Part shown: positions 5,137 to 16,761 of the stretch, one piece after another
Numbering within the stretch: the first letter of the stretch is position 1
Layout of the letters: every line of letters begins with the position of its first letter
Origin: a virus
Length of the DNA stretch: 22,385 nt
Reading direction: 5' to 3' (one strand)
IMG/VR virus record: IMGVR_UViG_3300047362_000403
Location: 1 to 22,385 of that record
Position numbers and translations under genes: made by a program
Notes under the pieces: model-generated
Told to the model about the DNA's origin: nothing
Seen by the model: only the letters and a program-made list of their open reading frames with translations
The model's database searches: none

Positions 5137-5415
5137 ATGGATTTTTTACAGTTTGTATCAGAAGTCGGTTTTCCAGTCGCAGGGGCGATAGCGGCCGGCT
5201 TTTTTGTTTTTACTACACTAAAATTTATATTAAGCAGTGTAACTGGTAGCGTTAATGGACTTAAAGGCATCATTAATGCACTAGACAATCGTGTTCAAAC
5301 TATGAACAATGACTTAGTAAAAATTGATACACTTATGAGCTATGCCCTCGGCGTAAAACCTAATATAGACAGGTTAGCCGCTAATGAGGGGAAAGAAGAC
5401 GCAAGACGCGACTAA
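5137..5415 (+). CDS. Small membrane protein with coiled-coil tail (holin-like?)
   Basis: A 92-aa protein with one N-terminal hydrophobic helix (about residues 8-32, GFPVAGAIAAGFFVF), then an amphipathic helical stretch (NALDNRVQTMNNDLVKIDTL) likely to form a coiled coil, and a charged tail. The plan of short N-terminus, GFP, single helix and coiled coil resembles small phage membrane proteins of the YvrJ/BhlA kind sometimes called holin-like. The protein at 5814 is clearly related. Strong G-run ribosome site 5 bases before the ATG. It is the first gene of a block read from the AATAAATAC element. The function as a holin is only a guess. Confidence 0.6.
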   Translation: MDFLQFVSEVGFPVAGAIAAGFFVFTTLKFILSSVTGSVNGLKGIINALDNRVQTMNNDLVKIDTLMSYALGVKPNIDRLAANEGKEDARRD

Positions 5416-5429
5416 AAAAGGAAACAGAA

Positions 5430-5639
5430 ATGTACTTAAAAAATTATGATATTGTTAAACTAGGTGAAGGTTTTAGATTAGTAAATCAAGCCGATCCAGA
5501 AGATAAACATGACCCAATCGACCAAGGATTATTTAAACCAGGTGACACTTTCACTGTAAATTATAACGGATGGCTAGAACATGTAGGGAACCGTTATGAA
5601 GAAATTATAGCACAAGCAAAAGCGGAGAAAGAGCAATGA
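5430..5639 (+). CDS. Small PGD-F-VN-GWL protein, copy 1
   Basis: A 69-aa soluble protein of unknown function. Its centre reads LFKPGDTFTVNYNGWLEHV, and the next gene has the corresponding LYQPGDVFIVNEQGWLVK, so the two are tandem paralogues. The pattern suggests a small all-beta domain. The ribosome site AAGGAAAC precedes the ATG. Its stop overlaps the next start (ATGA), so the pair should be made in equal amounts. It sits between two related membrane proteins, which hints that the four act together at the envelope. Confidence 0.6.
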   Translation: MYLKNYDIVKLGEGFRLVNQADPEDKHDPIDQGLFKPGDTFTVNYNGWLEHVGNRYEEIIAQAKAEKEQ

Positions 5640-5842
5640 TGTGGTTAGATTATACTATAGACCAAGGACCTCACGGATTTACCGTAAGAGGTGATTGGCC
5701 TGGAGAAGTTATGGGCCTAGACCGTGAAGGTAATAAAGGCTCTAAATCAACACCGTTGTACCAACCTGGAGATGTATTCATTGTTAATGAACAAGGATGG
5801 TTAGTAAAACAGAATGACAGGGGAACTAGCGGCAGCGATTAA
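5636..5842 (+). CDS. Small PGD-F-VN-GWL protein, copy 2
   Basis: A 68-aa paralogue of the preceding protein. The two share the (Y/F)-(K/Q)-PGD-x-F-x-VN-x-x-GWL core but little outside it. A PGEVMGLDREG segment in the N-terminal half has no counterpart in copy 1. It starts with ATGATG inside the ATGA junction, and its last 29 bases overlap the start of the next gene. There is no signal peptide or membrane helix. The function is unknown. Confidence 0.55.
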   Translation: MMWLDYTIDQGPHGFTVRGDWPGEVMGLDREGNKGSKSTPLYQPGDVFIVNEQGWLVKQNDRGTSGSD

Positions 5843-6146
5843 AGATTTTGGATTTCCCATTGTTGCTGCGATGGGATTAGGTTACTTCGTTTACTATGTA
5901 TGGAAATGGGTGACCACCGAAATTAAACCAGTTGTTGGAGAGGCTAACGCTACTCTAATAGGATTGATTGATCGTATTAGAATGTTAGATAATGATCTAA
6001 TACGACTAACACAAAAACTTCAAATGGTTTTGGAGTTTAAAGAAGAGTATGAAAAAATGACAGGCAGGAAACTTGATATAGACTTAGATGATATTGAGAG
6101 TTTGAAGCAAGGGGGAAAAGATGCTAAAAGAAAGCAAGTGGAGTAA
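5814..6146 (+). CDS. Small membrane protein with coiled-coil tail, paralogue of 5137 protein
   Basis: A 110-aa protein with the same plan as the 92-aa protein at 5137: a hydrophobic helix (DFGFPIVAAMGLGYFVYYVWKW, about 11-32) followed by an amphipathic segment (LIDRIRMLDNDLIRLTQKLQ, about 49-68) and a charged C-terminus. Shared features are GFP(V/I), the G-(F/Y)-FV core and the M-x-NDL repeat in the coiled coil. The start at 5814 overlaps the previous gene by 29 bases with only a weak ribosome site. No later start is convincing because the GFP motif begins at once. The last 26 bases overlap the next small gene. It may form hetero-oligomers with the 5137 product. Confidence 0.55.
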   Translation: MTGELAAAIKDFGFPIVAAMGLGYFVYYVWKWVTTEIKPVVGEANATLIGLIDRIRMLDNDLIRLTQKLQMVLEFKEEYEKMTGRKLDIDLDDIESLKQGGKDAKRKQVE

Positions 6147-6279: not shown

Positions 6280-6481
6280 TTGGAATGATGATCACATGTT
6301 TACACCAGCACAGAAAATTTATTTCCTATTTTGTGGTATTGTAGTAGCATTATGTATTAGTTATGTTACATACCTAGCATATGACTACAGAATTGAAAAT
6401 AAATTTGTGGAAACTATTAGTCCTAAGGATTATTGGGCAGAAGTTCCTAAATGGGAATGGAAACCTGTGTTTACTTCGTAG
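6272..6481 (+). CDS. 69-aa membrane protein with TTG start
   Basis: The frame is open from a TTG at 6257, but the better start is the TTG at 6272, which lies 5 bases after GGGAGG and overlaps the previous stop by 8 bases. The resulting protein begins MDNWNDDHMFTPAQK. It has one membrane helix (about 17-38, YFLFCGIVVALCISYVTYLAY) and a Trp-rich C-terminal part (WAEVPKWEWKPVF). It ends the plus-strand block, and its last 11 bases overlap the end of the convergent adenylate cyclase gene. The function is unknown. Confidence 0.5.
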   Translation: MDNWNDDHMFTPAQKIYFLFCGIVVALCISYVTYLAYDYRIENKFVETISPKDYWAEVPKWEWKPVFTS

Positions 6482-8519
6482 TAGCGATAAACACACCGTT
6501 CCAATCTTCTGGTAAGTCTTGCGTTTTCATATATTCGCAACGCTCTATCCACATATCGTAGTAACCATTCATTCGGCCATCAAACTGTTTCTTGAGGTAA
6601 TTACATTCACTAATTGCTTCGTCAAAATTCTGTGCTCTGTATGCCTTATGCATACCATCGTGTCTCTTTCGTGCTTTTATATCTTTTTGTTTAACATCAT
6701 CTAGCACGGTATATATTCTAATACCTATTGTTTTGCCTTTAACAGCAAGTTCATCAATTTTAAGATAAAAGAAATCATCTTTGGTTACATCATATGTGTT
6801 TTCTCCTACTAGCAATACACAACCATACTCTTTACACTTGCTTTCTATTCTAGCGGCTGTACTTACAGCATCTCCCAATACATCATATGAATGCCTCTGG
6901 GTAGATCCCATTTCACCAAGATAACCGAGACCAGTATTAATACCAGCACCCATACCCACTGGAGGGCGTCCTTCTGCTGTAATTTTATCATTAAACTTCT
7001 CCACTGCTTTTAACATGTTCAGTCCACATTGAACTGCTGACTTAGGATGGTGTGGATCATCTATAGGTGCATTGTGTATGTGCATACTTGCATCACCTAT
7101 ATACTTGATAACCATACCATCTGAATCTAATATAGGCTGTGTAATTGCATCCATATAACCATTCATTATTTTAGTTAATCCTTTTACATCATCTCCGAAT
7201 GACTCACCGAGCGGAGTGAAGCCACGCAAATCACTAAAACAAATACTAACTTCGCGCTTCATGCCTTCTTTGATTAGTGCAGGATTTTCTTGTAGCATAC
7301 GCACGACTGTTGGTGATGCGTACCCAGCAAACTGTTTCTTAATCTCTTGTTTCTCTAAGAATTCCTTAATAAAGCGGTTGAATGTTGCGTGGAACCCAAC
7401 GAGTGTTAATGCTATTAACGGCATGCTTACATCAAGCAAATATAAGTGATTTTGCCATGCGTGTAATGCACCATAAGTTAATAAACCGCCAAATATTAGG
7501 AATGAGCCTCCTATAATCCAATATGGTGTAAGTCCGACTATAAGGATAATTGTTAACGAAACAAACACTGTTGCACCAATCTCTGCTAAGAAAGCCCAGA
7601 ATGGACGCTGTATTTGATCTCCATCTAATACTGTTTGTAATGTTACTGCACCCGGCATATAATTATATTGCGGGCCTTTAGGACTGGCTATAGTACCTCC
7701 TATGCCATCCGCTGTTATACCAAGTATAACTGTTTTACCTTCCAATGACCAGAATTGATCTTCATCAGCGGCACTAACTTCTGTGAACCACTTATTCCAA
7801 CGTAACCAAATTTGTCCGTTCGGGTCTGTACTAATAATCGGATAACCAGGTACTCTTACTTTTTCTACCCCACCATCGTTTGCTTTAATTTGGTAACTAG
7901 GTGCGCCTGTTGCTACACGAATAACTTCGATAGCAATACTAGGGTAGGTATCTTCTCCAACTCTCATAATGAGTGGAACTCTGCGTACAACACCATCAAT
8001 TTCTGGTGCTGTATTAAGTACGCCTACGCCTGATGCATTTTCTCCTAATAATGGTATAGGACCCAACATACCAGGCCATTCAAACAAGTACGGAAGTGGA
8101 TCTCCTATTTTTGCAACTCCGCGTGGTACTGCATTTTTATTTGCCTGTAAACTTCCTACTTGTGCTATAATAACACCGTTATCGAATACCGCATCTGCTA
8201 AGTATTTGTCACCACCAAGTCTGTCGTCCTCGCTGAACAATATAGGCAAAACGATAATACCCGCTCCGGCTTCTCGTAACTTCCAAATAATATTTGAAAG
8301 TACTTCTCTATTCCAGGGCCATTGTCCATATTTTTCTATGGCGGCTTCGTCAATTGTAACGACTGCTATATCTTTGCTTTGCACATATTCATCTTGTTGT
8401 TGTAACAAATCGAAACTTTTTAATCTGACTGTTTGTACTACAAAATTATCGCTATAGTGAAATGAAATTACAACTAATGCCGTAATCAAGGCGACTGCCC
8501 AATGTGCAAAATACTTCAT
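6471..8519 (-). CDS. CHASE2-domain class III adenylate cyclase
   Basis: A 682-aa membrane-bound cyclase predicted to make cAMP from ATP in response to a periplasmic signal. Order: an N-terminal membrane helix (5-22), a periplasmic CHASE2 domain (about 30-305, with IAVVTIDEAAIEKYGQWPWNR at 51-71), three membrane helices (about 309-380), a linker and a catalytic domain (about 420-605). Metal-binding Asp430 (FSDLRGFT) and Asp476 (KYIGD) are present, as are adenine-selecting Lys472 and Asp546 (SYDVLGD) and Arg557. The usual Asn of VNLAAR is Ser553 (VSTAAR). The C-terminus ends DWNGVF, as in cellular CHASE2 cyclases, so the gene is full length. It starts one base after the thermonuclease stop. A membrane signalling cyclase is odd in a phage, and the nearby FecR gene is its common bacterial neighbour. 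Confidence 0.9.
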   Translation of the reverse strand: MKYFAHWAVALITALVVISFHYSDNFVVQTVRLKSFDLLQQQDEYVQSKDIAVVTIDEAAIEKYGQWPWNREVLSNIIWKLREAGAGIIVLPILFSEDDRLGGDKYLADAVFDNGVIIAQVGSLQANKNAVPRGVAKIGDPLPYLFEWPGMLGPIPLLGENASGVGVLNTAPEIDGVVRRVPLIMRVGEDTYPSIAIEVIRVATGAPSYQIKANDGGVEKVRVPGYPIISTDPNGQIWLRWNKWFTEVSAADEDQFWSLEGKTVILGITADGIGGTIASPKGPQYNYMPGAVTLQTVLDGDQIQRPFWAFLAEIGATVFVSLTIILIVGLTPYWIIGGSFLIFGGLLTYGALHAWQNHLYLLDVSMPLIALTLVGFHATFNRFIKEFLEKQEIKKQFAGYASPTVVRMLQENPALIKEGMKREVSICFSDLRGFTPLGESFGDDVKGLTKIMNGYMDAITQPILDSDGMVIKYIGDASMHIHNAPIDDPHHPKSAVQCGLNMLKAVEKFNDKITAEGRPPVGMGAGINTGLGYLGEMGSTQRHSYDVLGDAVSTAARIESKCKEYGCVLLVGENTYDVTKDDFFYLKIDELAVKGKTIGIRIYTVLDDVKQKDIKARKRHDGMHKAYRAQNFDEAISECNYLKKQFDGRMNGYYDMWIERCEYMKTQDLPEDWNGVFIATTK

Positions 8520-8520
8520 G

Positions 8521-8943
8521 TTAAACTATTATTCCCTTTTCAGTTAGTAATTGTCTGTTATCTAAATGTGCTTGTTGAATATCATCTTTACTTTGTCCAT
8601 GATATTCAACTGCGTGACCTTCGTCAATCATCATCTTGTTCAAGTTCACGCCGTCTTTCCAAACTGTACCTAGTACACGACCGAATTTTCCTTTTTCGTT
8701 ATCTAGTACCGTTGATACAATAATATCTTTACATAATCTTTCTTTTAGCCATGCTTTTGCTAAAAGTCCATATTTCTTCTCAACCTTATCTCTGGTTCTA
8801 CTTTCTGGTGTATCTATACCATACAATCTAACACGAGCTTCAAGTAGTACATCAAAACCTAAATCAAGTACACAATCAAATGTGTCACCATCTATTACCT
8901 TTACTATAGACTTTACTCTATAGTTGAATGCTGTTACTGACAT
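8521..8943 (-). CDS. Thermonuclease (staphylococcal nuclease-like, SNase family)
   Basis: A 140-aa single-domain nuclease with no signal peptide, hence probably cytoplasmic. The family motifs are complete: KVIDGDTF (15-22) with the Ca-binding Asp20, RLYGIDTPES (39-48) carrying Arg39, Asp44, Thr45 and Glu47, which match Arg35, Asp40, Thr41 and Glu43 of the staphylococcal enzyme, and GKFGRVLG with Arg89 (Arg87 equivalent). The C-terminal helix with GHAVEYHG is also typical. Similar nucleases occur in T4-like marine phages and may help degrade host DNA. A ribosome site (CGGAGAG) and an AAATAAATAC late-promoter element lie upstream. The cyclase gene follows after one base, so both are probably on one late transcript. 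Confidence 0.9.
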   Translation of the reverse strand: MSVTAFNYRVKSIVKVIDGDTFDCVLDLGFDVLLEARVRLYGIDTPESRTRDKVEKKYGLLAKAWLKERLCKDIIVSTVLDNEKGKFGRVLGTVWKDGVNLNKMMIDEGHAVEYHGQSKDDIQQAHLDNRQLLTEKGIIV

Positions 8944-8963
8944 GTTTCTCTCCGTTTCCTAAA

Positions 8964-8973
8964 GTATTTATTT
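8964..8973 (-). promoter_or_regulatory. Late-promoter-like element AAATAAATAC before the nuclease-cyclase pair
   Basis: On the minus strand AAATAAATAC ends 20 bases before the ATG at 8943. It overlaps the stop of the small gene at 8972. It matches the element before the 158-aa protein at 9679-9688 in all ten bases. Confidence 0.6.
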
Positions 8974-9160
8974 AAGAAACCTTTTTAAATTGATACCATT
9001 GAGGACAGGGAACGTCCCACGGCAAATATAACCGCGGAGGATAATGATAATACATTTTAGATACGTTATACGGAGCTCGATATTCACACACTCGAGTTAA
9101 TTGGTTATTATATATCCAACTGTGTGTAGCAAAAACCCCCGTTAATGCTATCCACAGCAT
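8972..9160 (-). CDS. 62-aa protein with N-terminal hydrophobic segment
   Basis: The frame is open upstream, but the ATG at 9160, one base after the stop of the preceding 158-aa gene and behind GGAAAGTGG, is the best start. The protein begins MLWIALTGVFATHSWIY, a hydrophobic stretch that could be a signal or anchor. The rest is rich in Tyr and Pro (MYYHYPPRLYLPW) and carries two Cys. I do not recognise it. Being coupled to the 158-aa protein, it may belong to the same virion or lysis function. Moderate confidence that it is translated. Confidence 0.45.
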   Translation of the reverse strand: MLWIALTGVFATHSWIYNNQLTRVCEYRAPYNVSKMYYHYPPRLYLPWDVPCPQWYQFKKVS

Positions 9161-9161
9161 G

Positions 9162-9638
9162 TTACCACTTTCCTTGGCTTGCACCCGCTATATATATTAG
9201 CCCACCAAGGAGCCCGGCTCCTACTATTGCTAACAATACACCAACAATCCACGCTATTATTTGTTCTTTGCGTTCTTCTGCAGCATATATTGCTTCTCGT
9301 TGTTCCTTACGCATTTGAACTTCCATGCGTACGATTTCATCCCAAGCACTCGGTCCATAATAAAGACTGATATACTGTCGCATTTCCTCACGCATTTCTT
9401 TTGCTTTTTGTTTGTGTGCCCAAATTTCCATGGCGTTGGCTTCTATGCCTCCGCCTAATGCTTTATACCATTTAGGTTTTTCTGCTTTTTGATGTGCGTA
9501 GTCTAAATCACTAAGAGCCTTGCCCCACTGTCCTAGTTGTGAGTACATACTCTGGATATCTTTTCCAGTGTTAATTGCACTTTTAATACCATTGAAGGCA
9601 GCCGTGGCTGCACCGATAGCCGTTATTGGATCTATCAT
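9162..9638 (-). CDS. Conserved T4-like marine phage protein with C-terminal membrane helix
   Basis: A 158-aa protein starting MIDPITAIGAATAAFNGIKSA. This opening, the long helical middle (KQKAKEMREEMRQY, VQMRKEQREAIYAAEERKEQ) and the C-terminal membrane helix (about 127-151, IIAWIVGVLLAIVGAGLLGG) match, from memory, a hypothetical protein conserved in T4-like cyanophages and pelagiphages. No function is known to me; it could be a virion or lysis-associated membrane protein. The leader is strong: AAATAAATAC, then a run of six G 6 bases before the ATG, nearly identical to the leader of the 5137 gene. It is one of the better taxonomic markers in the window. Confidence 0.7.
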   Translation of the reverse strand: MIDPITAIGAATAAFNGIKSAINTGKDIQSMYSQLGQWGKALSDLDYAHQKAEKPKWYKALGGGIEANAMEIWAHKQKAKEMREEMRQYISLYYGPSAWDEIVRMEVQMRKEQREAIYAAEERKEQIIAWIVGVLLAIVGAGLLGGLIYIAGASQGKW

Positions 9639-9678
9639 TTGATTCCCCCCAGTTGAATAACATTCCTGTTATCCAATG

Positions 9679-9688
9679 GTATTTATTT
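9679..9688 (-). promoter_or_regulatory. Late-promoter-like element AAATAAATAC before the 158-aa gene
   Basis: On the minus strand AAATAAATAC is 40 bases before the ATG at 9638, followed by a CTGGGGGGAATCAA leader. The short gap 9639-9719 also contains GTTATC (9668-9673) and its inverse GATAAC (9700-9705) flanking the element. No clear terminator for the curlin gene is visible here. Confidence 0.6.
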
Positions 9689-9719
9689 AGATTTTTTAAG
9701 ATAACTTAGTTTTGTGCGA

Positions 9720-10565
9720 TTATTGTTGTGTGACGGAAACTGAACACCCGCCCACTGTTACACAAGTTTGTGAAAGTGAATAACTCTTAGGTGTATTGCT
9801 GTGTTGCGTTACTGTTATGTCACTTGCATAAGTTCCGCTAGTTGCTATGTTCATACTATGCCCTGATGAACTGCCTGGATTATAGCCTTGGTCTAAATCA
9901 AATGTGCTATTGCTATTGTCTACGTCTAAGTTGATAGTATGTGTGCCGTGTCCGTTTTGTAATACATCTGCTGTAACATAATCAGCATCAATATCAACAT
10001 TCAATGTCTTACTAACGTCTGCTTGTTGTACAACGTCTACATCTGCATAATCACCATCTATTGCAATATTGCTTTCATGTCCATTGGGACCACTGCCCCA
10101 TGTTCCATTGTTACGTTGTGCTTGCCATACATTATTGTTGTCTCCTGTAATAGCAACGTTGGTTTCATGATTACCGTCTGCATAAGGATCATCATTTCCA
10201 GCATCATTTCTGTCTTGTAGGAGTGTTACTGTATTATCGTTGCCTGTTACGGTTAGATTGGCTGTGTTATCGCCACTGTTTCCGCTCAAAGAACCTTGTA
10301 ATACTTTTACAGTGTTGCCCGTTCCTGTTGAACAAACACTCATAGCATTGTTATCGTGCCATTGCTTCAGTGTTGCTGTAGTGCCATCTCCGTCAAAACA
10401 AGCGTCTGTTAAACTAGTGCCAATGGAGTTATTTTGACCATCTTGTACAACAGTCAAAGTTAGATCATCACCTATCTGATCAAGATATATATCATTAGCA
10501 AATGCACTATTGAATTTGAATAACATTAATGTCATTGCTACGGCCAGCACCCAGCGTATAGTCAT
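9720..10565 (-). CDS. Secreted curlin-like repeat protein 2
   Basis: A protein of about 281 aa with a signal peptide (MTIRWVLAVAMTLMLFKFNSAFA, cut before ND) and a mature part low in Lys/Arg and rich in Asn, Asp, Gly, Thr, Ser and Gln. The mature N-terminus NDIYLDQIGDDLTLTVVQDGQNN is a clear curlin-type Q-x-G-x-x-N repeat, and irregular repeats follow (TGNDNTVTLLQ, TGDNNNVWQAQ, DVDVVQQ, VTQHSN, SVSVTQQ). This is the composition and spacing of CsgA/CsgB amyloid subunits, though the repeats are more degenerate. It is a paralogue of the protein at 11637. The start could also be the TTG at 10574. Either way it overlaps the FecR gene by about 60 bases. It is expected to be exported through the CsgG pore encoded nearby and may form fibres; that role is inferred. 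Confidence 0.75.
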   Translation of the reverse strand: MTIRWVLAVAMTLMLFKFNSAFANDIYLDQIGDDLTLTVVQDGQNNSIGTSLTDACFDGDGTTATLKQWHDNNAMSVCSTGTGNTVKVLQGSLSGNSGDNTANLTVTGNDNTVTLLQDRNDAGNDDPYADGNHETNVAITGDNNNVWQAQRNNGTWGSGPNGHESNIAIDGDYADVDVVQQADVSKTLNVDIDADYVTADVLQNGHGTHTINLDVDNSNSTFDLDQGYNPGSSSGHSMNIATSGTYASDITVTQHSNTPKSYSLSQTCVTVGGCSVSVTQQ

Positions 10566-11637
10566 ATAACTCAAAGTCCCCTTGTTTTAATTGTATAGTG
10601 TAACTATTATCTCTAAACATCTTTAATCGTAGATAATTATTACCAGCGTTATCTTCTCTTATGAAAACCCATCTATCTCCTTGTTTATCTAAAAATATAC
10701 CAGTTGTGGCATCAAAACCGTATATATTTTTATCTTCTTGGAGTAATTCTCTATTTTGTCTAAATAATTCATCTTGGAAAAGAACTGCCAATGCAAGGTT
10801 AAGTTGGTCTAATATATCATATAACAAGTCTGCTAACAAATAATCTGTTTCATCTAATGCTGTTTTCCATATACCCTCAATAGATGATTCAAGAGAATCG
10901 TATGCTAATACATCTAACTCTAAAAAGTCAATGCCTAAAAAGTCTGCTAACTTACGCTTCTCAAGTTCTATTTCATCCTCTTCCTCATAGTAAGGATTCT
11001 TTTTACGCAATATAATTAAACCGTTAATTTGTTCTTCAGAAATATCTAATAATAAAGGAGGCGACGGAGGAGCCATACTATGTCTAGTTACTGTTGCTTG
11101 AAATGCCTGATTTAAAATAACTATACCAGCATCTGTCTCAACTTCAATTTCTCCTGTATAACACATTCCTGCTGTATTACAACTTGGTAATAGTGTAATC
11201 ATACTACCACCCATTTCATCTACAACCATGATGAAGTCAGTACCACGCACACCGATAGTTGCACTTGGTGTTCTAATTTTTACATTTTGTTTATAACGTT
11301 TGGCTATTTGCCCTGAAGCATATCTAACTGTACCTAATGATGCTTTTATACTTAGACTTCCTATATCATTTGCAGGATCGTATACAAATTCATCAATTAA
11401 TAGTCTACTATGTTCAGTTATATCAACACGGGTTTCGTCAACAAATTCTATACTCATCTTAGCACGAGCGGTAACCGCCGTGTCTTGCATAAGAACACTT
11501 AATCCGTTTGTTGCTTCTAGAGAATCTGAGCCGCGTTCTATGGCGCCGCTACCTTTAATTTTACCTATTTCACCTACTGAAGCCGCAATATTAGGACTGA
11601 ATAATACAATAGTTAAGGCAAATACAAAGCGTAACAT
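10507..11637 (-). CDS. FecR-domain periplasmic protein
   Basis: A 376-aa protein with an N-terminal signal peptide (about 1-19) and a FecR domain (about 25-185): VGEIGKIKGSGAIERG, then DTAVTARAKMSIEFVDETRVDI, SLGTVRYASGQ and the hallmark TPSATIGVRGTDF (123-135). The C-terminal half is acidic, unrecognised and probably helical. In bacteria FecR-domain proteins act in the periplasm as signal relays, and secreted FecR proteins are often encoded beside CHASE2 cyclases. Here the gene lies between two curlin-like genes: its ATG shares one base with the upstream curlin stop (TAATG), and its end overlaps the next curlin gene. It could monitor curlin export or act on the CHASE2 domain; both are inference. 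The domain call is confident. Confidence 0.85.
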   Translation of the reverse strand: MLRFVFALTIVLFSPNIAASVGEIGKIKGSGAIERGSDSLEATNGLSVLMQDTAVTARAKMSIEFVDETRVDITEHSRLLIDEFVYDPANDIGSLSIKASLGTVRYASGQIAKRYKQNVKIRTPSATIGVRGTDFIMVVDEMGGSMITLLPSCNTAGMCYTGEIEVETDAGIVILNQAFQATVTRHSMAPPSPPLLLDISEEQINGLIILRKKNPYYEEEDEIELEKRKLADFLGIDFLELDVLAYDSLESSIEGIWKTALDETDYLLADLLYDILDQLNLALAVLFQDELFRQNRELLQEDKNIYGFDATTGIFLDKQGDRWVFIREDNAGNNYLRLKMFRDNSYTIQLKQGDFELYDYTLGAGRSNDINVIQIQ

Positions 11638-12350
11638 TAATCGCTCTGTGTAATGTCTACATCAAAACTATCGCCATTAATTGTAAGGTCTACAGTATTA
11701 TCATAAATTCCAGATTGTGTTACGTCTACAGTGCCACCGCCACCGTCAATGTCTAGTGTAATACTGTGTCCACCGACGTCTCCGTCTCCGGACTGTGTGG
11801 TGGTCACTGTAACGCCTTCATCACTGTTAGCACTTGTAGTTGCTAAACTTGTGCTGTTGTTAATATCTACAGTTAGGCTTGCACTTTGACCATCAATGTC
11901 TGAGTTAATAATATTATTATCACCCGTTACTGTGAAAGATACTGTGGAGGAATCTGCATCACTTGTTTCACCGATGTCAAAGTCGAAGGTGTTATCATCA
12001 CCTGTAGTTGTAATATTTAAAGTAACTGTATCACAATTTCCTGTCGCTGTACTTGAACACAATAAATCAACTGTGTTAGTATCACCAGTAAAGGTCCAAG
12101 TACCAGTGTAAGTAGCACCTTTAATAACAGCGGCAATATCATTGTTATCACCTGTTTGTGTAATGGAAAAAGTCATGTCATCGCCAGTTAGCGTGACGTC
12201 TGTGGTTGAATCACCAACTTGGTTGTTTTGTCCATCTTGTACAATGTCCAAATCTAAACCATCGCCTATTTGATTTATATAAATGTCGTTTGCAAGAGCA
12301 TTTGTGCTTAAGAAAGCCATAGCCGCAACGAACCAAACGTAATATTTCAT
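11637..12350 (-). CDS. Secreted curlin-like repeat protein 1
   Basis: A protein of about 237 aa. The frame opens at a GTG (12365), but the ATG at 12350, 8 bases after GGGGG, gives a clean signal peptide (MKYYVWFVAAMAFLSTNALA, cut before ND). The mature start NDIYINQIGDGLDLDIVQDGQNNQVG matches the other curlin-like protein almost residue for residue. Later repeats are degenerate: TFSITQTGDNNDIA, TGDNNIINSDID, TTTQSGDGD, VDVTQSGIYDN, FDVDITQSD. The mature part is rich in Thr, Asp, Gly, Ser and Asn and almost free of Lys/Arg, as expected of a CsgA/CsgB-like amyloid subunit. It is first in a three-gene unit with FecR and curlin 2. Two late-promoter-like elements lie upstream. Confidence 0.78.
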   Translation of the reverse strand: MKYYVWFVAAMAFLSTNALANDIYINQIGDGLDLDIVQDGQNNQVGDSTTDVTLTGDDMTFSITQTGDNNDIAAVIKGATYTGTWTFTGDTNTVDLLCSSTATGNCDTVTLNITTTGDDNTFDFDIGETSDADSSTVSFTVTGDNNIINSDIDGQSASLTVDINNSTSLATTSANSDEGVTVTTTQSGDGDVGGHSITLDIDGGGGTVDVTQSGIYDNTVDLTINGDSFDVDITQSD

Positions 12351-12369
12351 CAGATAATCCCCCACATCT

Positions 12370-12378
12370 GTATTTACT
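12370..12378 (-). promoter_or_regulatory. Late-promoter-like element AGTAAATAC, proximal, for curlin operon
   Basis: On the minus strand AGTAAATAC is 20 bases before the ATG at 12350 and is followed by a GGGGG ribosome site. It is a weaker match (GTAAATA) than the distal CATAAATAC element at 12444-12452. Confidence 0.45.
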
Positions 12379-12443
12379 AATAGTTGACCGTTTTCCTAGG
12401 TTATTCTAAATAAAAAACCATAATGGTAAATATTAATACTAAA

Positions 12444-12452
12444 GTATTTATG
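12444..12452 (-). promoter_or_regulatory. Late-promoter-like element CATAAATAC, distal, for curlin operon
   Basis: On the minus strand the element CATAAATAC matches the ATAAATAC core exactly. It would give a leader of about 85 bases on the curlin-FecR-curlin transcript. It overlaps the inverted repeat AATACT-AA-AGTATT. Confidence 0.45.
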
Positions 12453-12456
12453 CTAG

Positions 12457-12474
12457 GTGTAAAAATATTTACAC
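12457..12474. promoter_or_regulatory. Perfect inverted repeat, possible operator
   Basis: GTGTAAA-AATA-TTTACAC, a perfect 7-bp inverted repeat with an AT-rich centre, lies in the 167-base region between the divergent curlin operon and Fis-like gene. An AATACT/AGTATT repeat (around 12435-12448) and ACCAT/ATGGT (around 12417-12427) are close by. Symmetric AT-rich sites with G and C at the ends are in keeping with Fis-type binding, though it is not an exact Fis consensus. Confidence 0.45.
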
Positions 12475-12504
12475 TATTGTTTTTAAAGTATAGTTTTTGA
12501 GCAA

Positions 12505-12512
12505 GATAAATA
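12505..12512 (+). promoter_or_regulatory. Late-promoter-like GATAAATA directly before the Fis-like start codon
   Basis: GATAAATA ends 5 bases before the ATG at 12518. With T4 late-promoter spacing (core at about -13 to -6), transcription would begin at or next to the A of the ATG, giving a leaderless mRNA. No Shine-Dalgarno sequence is visible before this ATG. Confidence 0.4.
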
Positions 12513-12517
12513 TTATT

Positions 12518-12748
12518 ATGGGTACTAAAGAAGAACAAATATATTTCTATAACATGTTTGATGAAATGTGGCCAAAGGATCATGTAGATGAAATTGACCT
12601 TGCCAAAGAAGTTGAAGATTTAGAGAAAAATAAAATTGAGATTGCTATGAAAGCATGTAGTATGAATCAAACAAGAGCAGCCAAAAAACTTGGTCTTGGG
12701 CGTACTAATTTAATTGCTAAACTTAAGAAATATAAAATTATTTTTTAG
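12518..12748 (+). CDS. Fis-like DNA-binding regulator (HTH_8)
   Basis: A 76-aa protein from the ATG at 12518 (the frame also opens at a TTG, 12497). The C-terminal 40 residues match the Fis/NtrC helix-turn-helix: LEKNKIEIAMKACSMNQTRAAKKLGLGRTNLIAKLKKYKI, with the A-A-x-x-L-G-(L/I)-x-R-x-x-L-x-x-K-L-K-K signature. The N-terminal part is acidic and unlike the Fis beta-hairpin. It is the only plus-strand gene in the curli block, divergent from the curlin operon and convergent with csgG (4-base overlap of ends). This suggests a local regulator of the block binding the inverted repeats before it. It could also mimic host Fis more widely. The family call is strong, the target is inferred. Confidence 0.8.
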   Translation: MGTKEEQIYFYNMFDEMWPKDHVDEIDLAKEVEDLEKNKIEIAMKACSMNQTRAAKKLGLGRTNLIAKLKKYKIIF

Positions 12749-13569
12749 TTTTCTTTGTTAGTTTTAAATTTCCAAAGTTCATTACGCTCGCCCTCTTTGA
12801 CAAGTTCTAACACACCTTGTTCGATAGCGGCTCTCACTGCATAGTTTACAGGTTCATTTATACTAAAGCCAGTTTCTGCTTCAAGTAATTTTGTTCCTAA
12901 ATCCAAAAACTTAAACACATCTGCTCCGCTTCTGGAACTAGCAATTGTTTTTTCTGTTGCTACAGTAAGCAACACTTTTCCTGTACTAACACTCACCAAT
13001 CTCATTACAACTGTTACTGTGTCAATACGATATTCTGCTTGTGATCCTAATCCAAGATAACGAGCACCTACGCCGCCTGTTGCTACATTACTATCATAAC
13101 CAACAATACCACCTTCTAATATTAAGCCAGCAAATCGCATAGGTTTTAACGGCTGTGGACCTTTAGGTAATTCTTTTTCATATACTTCTCTGGTGTTTCG
13201 TATTAGTTGGCGCTCTTTAATAAGATGATCCATACCACCGCGCTCTAATACCTCAAACCAAGTACTGTTTCCTATTTCTGAAAGTGCTTTGATTACCCAT
13301 ACTTCACTACCTTGTGTTACTGCACTAGATAGATTAGCAATATTATCTGCAGGCTTACGTTGACCTGTCATATCTTGAAATTTATAAACAGCAATGGATA
13401 TTTTCTTACCATCTAACTCTGGAAACTTTATTAACTGTTCAGCAAGCGGTGCTGGCTGTATACGAGGAGTATTCTTCGCATCATTAAAAGTTTCAATAGC
13501 CTGTTTACCGGTTGTTGCTACACACCCTGATAACATTACACTGGCGATTACCAATGGTATAATTTTCAT
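12745..13569 (-). CDS. csgG: CsgG-like curli secretion lipoprotein
   Basis: A 274-aa protein with a lipoprotein signal (LSGC, Cys16) and strong similarity along its length to CsgG, the nine-fold outer-membrane pore that exports curlins: AVYKFQDMTGQRKP (60-73), WFEVLERGGMDHLIKERQ (104-121), a match to E. coli WFIPLERQGLQNLLNERK, GLILEGGIVGYDSNVATGGVGARYLG (148-173) and INEPVNYAVRAAIEQGV (237-253). The pore-constriction region reads KPADNIANLSSAV, where E. coli has KPYPASNFSTAV: Asn is kept (Asn79), but the aromatic Tyr and Phe are replaced (Ala/Asp and Leu80) and one residue is added. It follows csgF directly (TAATG junction). Expected in the host outer membrane. It could export the two curlin-like proteins or help open the envelope. 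Confidence 0.92.
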   Translation of the reverse strand: MKIIPLVIASVMLSGCVATTGKQAIETFNDAKNTPRIQPAPLAEQLIKFPELDGKKISIAVYKFQDMTGQRKPADNIANLSSAVTQGSEVWVIKALSEIGNSTWFEVLERGGMDHLIKERQLIRNTREVYEKELPKGPQPLKPMRFAGLILEGGIVGYDSNVATGGVGARYLGLGSQAEYRIDTVTVVMRLVSVSTGKVLLTVATEKTIASSRSGADVFKFLDLGTKLLEAETGFSINEPVNYAVRAAIEQGVLELVKEGERNELWKFKTNKEN

Positions 13570-14042
13570 TAAAAGTTGAACTCCCCGGCACCTGGAATAG
13601 TAATAGTGGTGGTTGATCCATCATCTGCAACTATTTCTAACGTAATACTTTCTGTTACCGGATCTTTTGTCCAAGTAATTGTGGAACCTTCAATCTCTGC
13701 GGTTCCTGAACTAGGACAAGTTGTACCACTTGTATCAGTACATGTCGCAAACATACTATCCACCATCTGTTTAGATAGTGTAGCGTATATTCTTGATTCA
13801 ATATTTTTAATAAACTTGTTAAGTGTAGAATTTTCTAACTCGCGTTCCAAGCGTTCCGCTTCTGCACGAGCTTCATCTTTAATGTCCTGCCTTCTATTAA
13901 ACTGTAGTTGTTCTACACTTAATACATGACTACTGTAACCGTTGCCATAATGGAAGGCAGGACTCTTAAAGGAATGTGTTAGTTCACTAGCGTATGAACT
14001 ACCTCCTATCATTGTTAATAAAACTAAAAACATTAGGCGCAT
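13569..14042 (-). CDS. csgF: CsgF-like curli assembly factor
   Basis: A 157-aa protein with a signal peptide (about 1-18, ending SSYAS). The mature N-terminus ELTHSFKSPAFHYGNGYSS matches the CsgF segment (T-x-x-F-x-(N/S)-P-x-F-G) that inserts into the CsgG channel. Next comes a charged helical linker (EARAEAERLERELENS), a LNKFIKNIESRIYATL segment similar to the CsgF middle, and a C-terminal beta region (ITWTKDPVTESITLEIVADDGSTTTITIPG) resembling the E. coli tail. It is about 20 residues longer than E. coli CsgF and has two extra Cys (CTDTSGTTC). It is first in a csgF-csgG pair, the order of many phage and bacterial versions being variable. GGGGG ribosome site and an ACTAAATAC element upstream. 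Confident. Confidence 0.85.
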   Translation of the reverse strand: MRLMFLVLLTMIGGSSYASELTHSFKSPAFHYGNGYSSHVLSVEQLQFNRRQDIKDEARAEAERLERELENSTLNKFIKNIESRIYATLSKQMVDSMFATCTDTSGTTCPSSGTAEIEGSTITWTKDPVTESITLEIVADDGSTTTITIPGAGEFNF

Positions 14043-14092: not shown

Positions 14093-15658
14093 TTATGCAT
14101 AGTCCATTGTACGAGATTTATTAAAGAATCCATACAAAAGAAGTAGGATTCCAATTACTATACATATAGCCAACGCTGGGTGTTGAATAAACGTAGGATT
14201 ATTGAATATATAGTTTGTGCTTAATAAACTAAAGTCTCCATTTAGTGCCGCTGATACTGACTGTATATCATCATAAAAGAACACATTAGATAACTGTAAG
14301 TAGGATCCTTCAATGCGTGGGAATAAAATATAAGCCATAAGTAATGCAGGTCTACTAAACTTGCCATACTTACATACCATACCAATGATACCGAACACCA
14401 CTAGCATAGTTAAATCTTCCCATACACTTGCATAGAATCTACTTGCAAGAACAGCCCAGATTGTTAACGCCAACATTGGGGGAATCCAATAATATGGGTT
14501 GATATAAACAATCTTACAACACCATCTCGCAAATACTAACATTAGAACACCTGCAAAGAATGTTCCTAACATATAACCACCCAGTAAACTATTCATAAAC
14601 TGCGTATCATCCATGATGAATGGACTACCAACTTCAAAACCTATATAAAGCCATAAGGCCATAAGTAATGCAAACACTTTGCCGCCTGGAATACCAAACA
14701 TAATAGTAGGCAATAAGCCTCCCATCTTGCCAGCGTTGTTAGCACCTTCAGGACCGATAACACCTTTGATGTTTCCAGTACCAAACTTGACTTTTTCTTT
14801 TTTGTTAAGTGCAACTGTGGCACTATAACTTGTCCAGTCACCAATACCGCCACCAGTACCAGGAAGAATGCCTACAACAAAACCAATACACCCACCCATA
14901 AAGGCTAGGTACTTGTGTTTCCAGACAGCAAGAATGCCGTCCCAAGTTTGTTTATTGTGTTCCTTACGTGAAATTCTTGCAACTTCATACTTGGTTGTCA
15001 ACGCTTCCCATAATTCTGGAAGAGCAAACAAACCTGCCGCAACAATAACAACTGGTACACCATCTTCTAAATAGGCCCAGCCGCCTGTATTTCTGACTTC
15101 GCCCATCATGCCATAACCAATGCTACCAAAGAACAAACCTATACCAATAGCACAAAGGCTACGAGCTGTGTTCTTAGTAGTAACAACTGATATTAGACAG
15201 AATGCTACAATAATAAGTCCTGCTATTTCTGGAACACCAACATAATCCGCTATTGCTCCATAAAAAGGAATAATAGCCATACCTAATGCACCAAATAATA
15301 AACCATTAATCGTGCTTACTGTAATTGCAGAACTAAGAGCGTAACTTGCCTTACCCTGCTTTGCCAGTGGAAATCCATCTACCATTGTACTTGCCGCTCC
15401 TGATGCTCCTGGTATTCCCAAGAGTACACTCGCAAAACTATCACCAATAGTACATGATACCATTGTTGCAATAGAAAACATTACAAACAGATAATTACCG
15501 CCCGCAAAATCAAAGCTCTGTACAATAACAAAGAGCATAATGATTGCTTTACCAGGGCCTGCACTAGGAATTAACCCAATTAGGCCCCCATAAAGAATAC
15601 CGGCAGTGAGCATTAACGCCCACTGCACGGCAACTGGATATGTAAGAATCCACTCCAT
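14093..15658 (-). CDS. tctA: TctA-family large permease of a tripartite tricarboxylate transporter
   Basis: A 521-aa polytopic membrane protein (about 11-12 hydrophobic segments), of normal length for TctA (about 500). Family signatures are clear: GGLIGLIPSAGPGKAI near the N-terminus, GDSFASVLLGIPGASGAAST, and the central VGILPGTGGGIGDWTSYSATV followed by FGTGNIKGVIGPEGANNAGKMGGLLPTIMFGIPGG. TctA forms the inner-membrane channel that works with the periplasmic TctC receptor and the small TctB subunit to import carboxylates using ion gradients. Here tctC lies 2 bases upstream and no tctB is present. Complete and without visible damage, so probably functional. Phage carriage suggests steering host carbon uptake; the substrate cannot be read. 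Confidence 0.9.
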   Translation of the reverse strand: MEWILTYPVAVQWALMLTAGILYGGLIGLIPSAGPGKAIIMLFVIVQSFDFAGGNYLFVMFSIATMVSCTIGDSFASVLLGIPGASGAASTMVDGFPLAKQGKASYALSSAITVSTINGLLFGALGMAIIPFYGAIADYVGVPEIAGLIIVAFCLISVVTTKNTARSLCAIGIGLFFGSIGYGMMGEVRNTGGWAYLEDGVPVVIVAAGLFALPELWEALTTKYEVARISRKEHNKQTWDGILAVWKHKYLAFMGGCIGFVVGILPGTGGGIGDWTSYSATVALNKKEKVKFGTGNIKGVIGPEGANNAGKMGGLLPTIMFGIPGGKVFALLMALWLYIGFEVGSPFIMDDTQFMNSLLGGYMLGTFFAGVLMLVFARWCCKIVYINPYYWIPPMLALTIWAVLASRFYASVWEDLTMLVVFGIIGMVCKYGKFSRPALLMAYILFPRIEGSYLQLSNVFFYDDIQSVSAALNGDFSLLSTNYIFNNPTFIQHPALAICIVIGILLLLYGFFNKSRTMDYA

Positions 15659-15660
15659 TT

Positions 15661-16761
15661 TTACTTGAGTAGTTCTTCTTTAACGAACGCATCCTGATAC
15701 TTAAACAAGTCGTTAGCAAGTACAACTAGAGTTTCAAGATTTTGTCTGTTAATTAGCGAGAACAAGTAGTCACTGTGTGCAATAACTTCATCACCTGATA
15801 ACCAAGGGAAAGCACCTAGTTTCTTATCCAAACGAGCCATTACTTCTGGATCATTTAACATTTCTGCCACTGCGGCATCAATGTCTGCTTTGAAAGGAGA
15901 GTTAGGAGCAATCCAAATTGTCTTTTGGAAACCATCTCTGTAACCTTGGAATGTTACATATGCTTCGTAAACTGGACCGCTTGGCTTTACACCGTATTCT
16001 GCTTCATAAACTTCTGGGAAGGACTGTGCGCCTTCTGGTGCATTTGGATCACCGTAAACAGAACCTTTACCGTCTACAATACCGTGTGCAAACCATACAC
16101 GACTTTTTCCTGACTCATACTCTTTAGCATAACCCATTAAAGAAGTCTGTGGGGTATCACGTGTTGCGTCTAACTGTCCTCTACGGAATGCTTGGCGCTT
16201 CTCGCCGCCTGAGTTAAATCCTGGGATAAAACGTAGTTTTTCGTTTGTACATGCTAGGAATGATTCAACTGTTGCATTTTTCTCTGGACCACAAATCATT
16301 AGTCCTACTGCAACGATGTCAGCCGCAAAGCCTGTACCGCCTGTTGCTGGAAACTTAACTACGTCATTTCTCCAGTCAACGTCTGAGTTAATTGAAACCC
16401 AAATGTTAGTATTCATCACAACTACTGGATCGTAGTTACGATAATCAAAACCACCTACGTCTTCTAGTAGGAAGCCTTCACCATTACCGCCGTGTGCAAT
16501 CATTAGTGTTGTTGGGCGATCCTGATATGAACCAGCATAGTCTTTAAGTGACTTCTTGCCTCGTTGACCTGGAAGGTAACGTGGAACAATGTTGTGTCCA
16601 TATTTTTCGAGCTTACCATTGAGCTCTTTCATTACATTGTCACCCCAGAATGCCGTACCTCCTTTACCTGGACCGTTCGGAAACTGAAGTTCGAAAGTTT
16701 CTGCTACTGCTGAAGTAGCCATCATCGTGGCGACTGCCACAATCGATAGTAGTTTTTTCAT
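15661..16761 (-). CDS. tctC: TctC-like periplasmic solute-binding protein of the TTT system
   Basis: A 366-aa protein with a Sec signal peptide (MKKLLSIVAVATMMATSAVA, cut before ET). It has a mature domain of the Bug/TctC kind: LQFPNGPGKGGTAFWGDNV near the start (the P-x-G-x-G-x-D-type opening loop in variant form), a PATGGTGFAADIVAVGLM segment and RGQLDATRDTPQTS in place of the usual G-E-(V/L)-D loop. It is somewhat longer than typical TctC proteins (about 300-330 aa), so it belongs to a divergent subgroup. It is transcribed just ahead of tctA. ACGGAG ribosome site; a 156-base leader with two hairpins lies upstream. It would capture a carboxylate-type ligand in the host periplasm; ligand unknown. 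Confidence 0.8.
   Translation of the reverse strand: MKKLLSIVAVATMMATSAVAETFELQFPNGPGKGGTAFWGDNVMKELNGKLEKYGHNIVPRYLPGQRGKKSLKDYAGSYQDRPTTLMIAHGGNGEGFLLEDVGGFDYRNYDPVVVMNTNIWVSINSDVDWRNDVVKFPATGGTGFAADIVAVGLMICGPEKNATVESFLACTNEKLRFIPGFNSGGEKRQAFRRGQLDATRDTPQTSLMGYAKEYESGKSRVWFAHGIVDGKGSVYGDPNAPEGAQSFPEVYEAEYGVKPSGPVYEAYVTFQGYRDGFQKTIWIAPNSPFKADIDAAVAEMLNDPEVMARLDKKLGAFPWLSGDEVIAHSDYLFSLINRQNLETLVVLANDLFKYQDAFVKEELLK

Follow-up and report, generated by a model that had tools for sequence, protein, structure and literature searches.

A secreted FecR-domain protein and a CHASE2 nucleotide cyclase as candidate partners in the curli secretion module of marine phages

A module combining csg genes with genes for FecR and an adenylate cyclase (AC) was published in 2022 for pelagiphage podo- and myoviruses (PMC9599517, mSystems). 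That study reported expression of the module, suggested a role in curli regulation and noted an alphaproteobacterial affinity; FecR, a histidine kinase (HK) and AC were said not to occur in bacterial curli operons, and CHASE2 is not mentioned in the main text. Phage csgF and csgG had also been noted, together with hypothetical genes, by Zaragoza-Solas et al. (PMC7029224), and in the description of phage Melnitz csgFG was interpreted as a lysis pore, the cyclase and FecR not being discussed (PMC9004378). The subject of the present analysis is a viral DNA stretch of 22,385 bases, IMG/VR record IMGVR_UViG_3300047362_000403 (the window), which carries genes for a CHASE2-class III nucleotide cyclase (nt 6471–8519, minus strand) and a secreted FecR-domain protein (nt 10507–11637, minus strand). 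Open reading frames (ORFs) and Pfam searches give the minus-strand order csgF-csgG-curlin-FecR-curlin, then two small ORFs, an SNase gene and the cyclase, and confirm the coordinates and domain calls of an earlier, sequence-only annotation (the original prediction), which had placed a secreted FecR protein in a curlin operon and a full-length CHASE2 cyclase within 5 kb of it. By content and order (csgF, csgG, curlin repeat, FecR, an optional curlin, cyclase), this region belongs to the type VIII secretion (curli) modules of marine phages.

Genes and gene order are identical to those of the published pelagiphage module, including the second curlin and the cyclase. The difference lies upstream of csgF, where the podovirus version of that module has an HK gene and the window has TctA/TctC-like genes; no histidine kinase was found at that place in the window. 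Searches of phage isolates (tblastn) returned the cyclase of the Methylophilales phage Melnitz (MZ577097; 67.6% identity) and of Pelagibacter phage HTVC008M (NC_020484; 45.9%), both with the same gene order. The Melnitz cassette is syntenic, with a FecR protein 44.8% identical and a cyclase of the same Ser-type (see below), the catalytic half of which is 90% identical to that of the window and the sensor half only 57%. HTVC008M has a sensor half 52% identical but, unlike the window, a shorter protein with another catalytic domain (36% identical) that carries the canonical Asn. The original prediction held such a cyclase to be very unusual in a phage, a view that is not correct for this lineage, in which the module is published and widespread.

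FecR and the cyclase were found to be linked throughout the sampled relatives. Three scans of viral contigs were annotated by hidden Markov models built from the window proteins; counts refer to distinct loci with enough flanking sequence, the scans keep the nearest relatives, and contigs may overlap between scans. In IMG/VR, FecR and cyclase accompanied CsgG at 27/27 loci, a CHASE2 cyclase was present at all 38 FecR-centred loci with enough downstream sequence, and FecR was present at 30 of 31 cyclase-centred loci. In the exception (L059), the cyclase is flanked on either side by inverted, diverged copies of these genes, and the contig may be a chimeric assembly. Two further IMG/VR scans, with distant FecR types from contigs of metagenome-assembled genomes (MAGs), gave a cyclase at 41/41 and 48/48 loci, and neither they nor the podovirus isolates in the phage collection included a FecR locus without a cyclase. 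The linkage in every distinct IMG/VR FecR locus with sufficient downstream sequence is a new observation, and the joint presence on which the original prediction had staked the pairing is thus conserved across related phages.

Beyond being linked, the sensor half of the cyclase diverges in step with one part of the FecR protein. Mantel and partial Mantel tests on distances from 68 distinct phage loci gave a higher correlation of the sensor half with the FecR domain (0.60) than with CsgG (0.46) or CsgF (0.43). The correlation with the FecR domain persisted given CsgG (partial r = 0.44, Mantel P 0.002) and given all curli genes (0.41). The sensor had no residual link to CsgG given FecR (−0.14) or to CsgF once FecR was included, and none to Cur2 (0.00 given FecR), although Cur2 sits between FecR and the cyclase; its repeats align poorly, which lowers the power of that comparison. 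Tracking was confined to the FecR domain, the FecR C-terminus giving −0.08. An independent set returned the same pattern, with 0.60 for sensor and FecR domain given CsgG and 0.03 for sensor and CsgG given FecR. This replicated, FecR-domain-specific co-divergence is newly observed here and argues for, without proving, a physical partnership of the FecR domain with CHASE2 rather than linkage alone.

The pairing extends to cellular genomes. The prediction that CHASE2 and FecR genes are frequent neighbours in bacteria was borne out in 115 alphaproteobacterial genomes, where FecR lies within 6 kb of 39/112 CHASE2 genes (1.06 expected by random placement) and upstream on the same strand within 2.5 kb of 21/112 (0.11 expected); this neighbourhood count is also new. 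Among relatives in GTDB, Ruegeria, other Rhodobacteraceae and Rhodospirillales have a CHASE2 cyclase with FecR directly upstream and no curli genes, and a Burkholderia biofilm operon pairs a LysM-FecR protein with a CHASE2 histidine kinase (PMC5192318). Both resemble the phage arrangement in having a secreted FecR gene beside a CHASE2 membrane sensor, and differ from it in having no curli genes and, in Burkholderia, a kinase as output. The chromosomal genes of two Caulobacteraceae-family genomes (L226/G001 and G085/L309) include the array csgF-csgG-curlin-curlin-FecR-cyclase. FecR and cyclase therefore do occur in bacterial curli operons, contrary to the statement in PMC9599517, and the whole module in these genomes is likewise a new observation. 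It is rare, the module-type FecR being present in only 2/249 sampled genomes of the family. Its sequences sit inside a phage-rich clade of the sensor tree, which does not settle the direction of transfer. FecR as a CHASE2 partner is well supported by this comparative evidence.

The 376-aa FecR protein matches Pfam FecR (E 1e-8) and, over nearly its full length, phrog_37870 (E 2e-98). Its structure model (predicted local distance difference test (pLDDT) 73) has a signal-peptide-like helix (residues 2–12), a beta-domain (22–184), a helical middle and C-terminal strands. Foldseek matched the FecR domain to periplasmic FecR-type anti-sigma and PupR domains (4m0h/4m0n, 6ovk). The periplasmic fold is thus common to the phage protein and the FecR/PupR cell-surface regulators, but the latter have a cytoplasmic anti-sigma domain and a single-transmembrane inner-membrane anchor, whereas the phage FecR has neither and is a separate secreted protein: no cytoplasmic anti-sigma domain was found in it, the FecR domain following directly upon the signal-peptide-like helix. 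Neither a sigma-factor gene nor a FecI or FecA gene was found beside it among the window ORFs (Pfam). The conserved C-terminus closes with a curlin-like NxIxIxQ motif, which hints at a contact with curlin.

The cyclase (682 aa) matches Pfam CHASE2 (E 2e-37, residues 14–323) and Guanylate_cyc (E 9e-17, 421–597) and, nearly full length, phrog_35576 (E 5e-197). In the AlphaFold2 model (mean pLDDT 88) it has the CHASE2 topology of a domain between a first transmembrane helix and a three-helix transmembrane bundle: the first helix at about 7–23, periplasmic CHASE2 at about 24–308, transmembrane helices at 309–330, 333–358 and 365–397, a cytoplasmic catalytic domain at about 420–606 and C-terminal helices at 612–665. 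The catalytic part superimposes on CyaB, CyaC and Cya2 with target-normalised TM-scores of 0.84–0.89, a class III fold. Both metal-binding aspartates (Asp430, Asp476) are present and invariant across the phage alignment, the adenine-specifying pair Lys472/Asp546 is in place, and Arg557 and Lys594 are retained. Catalytic domains of relatives keep about 90% amino-acid identity although their four-fold sites are close to saturated, which excludes a chance ORF. Mean amino-acid identity across catalytic domains is 0.77 with four-fold sites at 0.39 (0.33 by chance), which rules out recent gene conversion as the source of their similarity and indicates strong purifying selection. The sensor half and the catalytic half differ in their history: by placements well supported in both trees, L059 and L021 cluster with the window sensor but have another catalytic domain. 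The cyclase frame of one relative (L214, nt 11453–12910+) is broken into several ORFs, and in two others (L010, L206) the cyclase is on the opposite strand from the module.

We favour, with confidence a little above even, the reading that an exported FecR protein partners the CHASE2 sensor and switches the membrane cyclase, the product most likely being cyclic AMP (cAMP). In the periplasm, the beta-domain of the exported FecR would serve as a dedicated partner for the CHASE2 sensor; the cyclase that bears this sensor is encoded a few genes further downstream. We infer that the most likely trigger of FecR binding or release is the state of the curlin subunits or of the CsgG/CsgF pore, given the curlin-like strand at the end of FecR and the position of its gene between two curlin genes. 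This switch would then act on the cytoplasmic class III domain, most likely making cAMP.

Several observations weigh against it. The transition-state Asn-Arg pair is incomplete, Asn being replaced by Ser553 in the window's type while Arg557 is kept. The cyclic-nucleotide-binding domain PF00027 was found in 0/39 phage records and in 5/118 Pelagibacteraceae genomes (absent in 113/118), a survey of phages and Pelagibacteraceae outside which OM43 hosts lie. Co-divergence is weaker in the L227-type set (0.25 given CsgG, still specific to the FecR domain over the C-terminus) and at loci with widely separated FecR and cyclase genes (partial r 0.26, n = 14), and shared recombination blocks could be part of its cause. 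Curli regions without FecR or AC have also been reported (PMC9599517).

The first two points favour an alternative, less likely than not, in which the enzyme does not signal via cAMP: it would make another cyclic nucleotide or mainly consume nucleoside triphosphates, with host defence or metabolism as possible targets, or the window's type would be a weak or non-catalytic sensor domain. Among the 103 distinct phage domains of the first set, 88 have Ser at the Asn site, always with Asp546. Bacterial relatives and most of the distant phage types keep Asn; Ser occurs three times in the GTDB set, in cases that are on phage-like MAG contigs or carry the phage module. The original prediction was right that the metal and adenine residues are in place but did not mention this replacement. 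The retention of all six other residues named above and the purifying selection on the catalytic domain speak against this alternative, as does Ma1120 of Mycobacterium avium, which shares the Lys-Asp pair and has Ala in place of Asn, yet is active as an adenylyl cyclase (PMC4215837). The comparison of Ma1120 with the window cyclase covers catalytic sites, with Ala in one and Ser in the other, and by this analogy activity despite Ser553 is plausible. In favour of the alternative are matches of PADLOC PycC models, through the shared fold, and a PycTM gene, encoding a Pycsar effector, next to the cellular homologue in one genome. PycTM (PF18967) was found in 0/18 phage records and in only 1/30 genomes or records searched (G001), and PF00027, a part of PycTIR, in none of the 39 phage records. 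A Pycsar-like link as a general feature was accordingly rejected, the single PycTM being downstream of a cellular homologue. That gene (L226, nt 10470–11063) lies 442 bp downstream of the cyclase and is the sole PycTM in its genome. The second cellular module has a SpdA/CpdA-like metallophosphoesterase gene (L309, nt 15691–16551) about 430 bp upstream of csgF, which was rejected as a candidate phosphodiesterase as it scores under NCBIfam cut-offs and is a single case.

Since PF00027 is absent from the phage records and from nearly all Pelagibacteraceae genomes sampled, the SAR11-infecting members would have a cAMP route without a recognised receiver. Class III cyclases are equally scarce in these cells, with matches above the Pfam cut-off in only 2/118 Pelagibacteraceae genomes, one of them the L227 module contig itself. 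The periplasm-to-cAMP pathway originally proposed has therefore fared unevenly: FecR/CHASE2 pairing, co-divergence and a periplasmic FecR fold sustain its sensing half, and the Ser and the failure to find a receptor in these records count against its cAMP output. It is a puzzle that a strongly conserved cyclase is brought into SAR11 cells nearly devoid of cyclases or cyclic-nucleotide receptors of their own; a receiver, once found, would be a new receptor of this kind, or else the enzyme has a different role. The most far-reaching proposal, that marine phages install the secreted FecR and CHASE2 cyclase as a two-protein envelope sensor, which turns the state of the phages' curli secretion into a cyclic-nucleotide signal read by a phage- or host-encoded non-CRP receptor, in hosts otherwise without such signalling, is tentative and, taken whole, quite improbable.

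The weaker co-divergence at distant-gene loci bears on a different explanation, that FecR and cyclase are merely co-inherited cargo: FecR would serve curli, for example by tethering curlin at CsgG, the cyclase would act elsewhere, and the correlation would stem from linkage. All genes fit into about 8 kb and move together between genomes as one block, and the curlin-like FecR C-terminus would suit such a role. Linkage does not readily explain, however, why Cur2, nearer to the cyclase, has no partial correlation, why CsgG and CsgF have none once FecR is included, or why, in two sets, the sensor is followed by the FecR domain alone. The bacterial FecR-CHASE2 pairs without curli likewise speak against it, and we regard it as rather unlikely. 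A published suggestion (PMC9599517) makes FecR a reporter of iron or citrate that governs the transcription of curli genes, and gives cAMP the part that it has in the control of csgD in enterobacteria. It is in keeping with the FecR domain, but it is highly unlikely, as it needs CsgD and CRP (no CsgD was reported in that study, and no PF00027 was found in the phages) and the phage FecR has a signal peptide, no cytoplasmic anti-sigma domain and no adjoining FecI or FecA gene. A lysis-timing device built on a gated CsgGF pore, with the cyclase incidental, was proposed for Melnitz in a paper that states that this phage lacks CsgA/B (PMC9004378); it is very doubtful given that the Melnitz record annotates curlin-repeat genes, FecR and cyclase beside csgFG, and that these are kept in every sampled relative.

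A partnership of FecR with CHASE2 would be of interest beyond phages. CHASE2 is a common bacterial sensor domain, the signals of which were described as unknown in 2016 (PMC5192318), and the phage module supplies many natural, co-diverging FecR-CHASE2 pairs, which makes FecR as a CHASE2 ligand directly testable.

The remaining genes of the cassette are as follows, all on the minus strand unless stated. CsgF (nt 13569–14042; Pfam 9e-12) and the outer-membrane secretion channel CsgG (nt 12745–13569; Pfam 2e-48) precede the first curlin-repeat protein (nt 11637–12365), assigned from its sequence and from synteny with Melnitz gp101 and HTVC008M gp016. The second curlin-repeat protein (nt 9720–10574) has a Sec-type N-terminus and no Pfam match; it was assigned from its sequence and its position, the same as that of Melnitz gp103, annotated as 'curlin associated repeat protein'. 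Between it and the cyclase are a 158-aa protein with a C-terminal hydrophobic segment and no assigned function (p158; nt 9162–9638, phrog_32327), which recurs among relatives as a frequent companion of the cyclase, and, directly upstream of the cyclase, an SNase-like nuclease (nt 8521–8943, Pfam SNase) that is found in a minority of relatives and does not belong to the constant genes of the module. Two contigs of a Rickettsiales MAG (L230, L231) have a CHASE2 cyclase followed by p158, with no csg genes in the sequence covered; upstream of its cyclase, L231 also has a 1,300-aa frame with a match to FecR, and both are probably phage contigs in the MAG. An 83-aa Fis-type HTH_8 protein (nt 12497–12748, plus strand; Pfam 7e-12) is encoded antisense inside the operon; in many relatives its gene is divergent and upstream of csgF, and it may be a regulator of the module. 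Adjoining the module are TctA (Pfam) and a TctC-like periplasmic protein (nt 14093–16761), a pair also seen beside the module in L004, L005 and L018; TctA was tried as a clue to the host and is uninformative, with only ~34% identity to Pelagibacteraceae TctA. On the other side, tail-to-tail with the cyclase, nt 5137–6146 (plus strand) encode two similar small proteins with a single transmembrane segment and two similar proteins of 68–69 aa, a set that looks like a tandem duplication.

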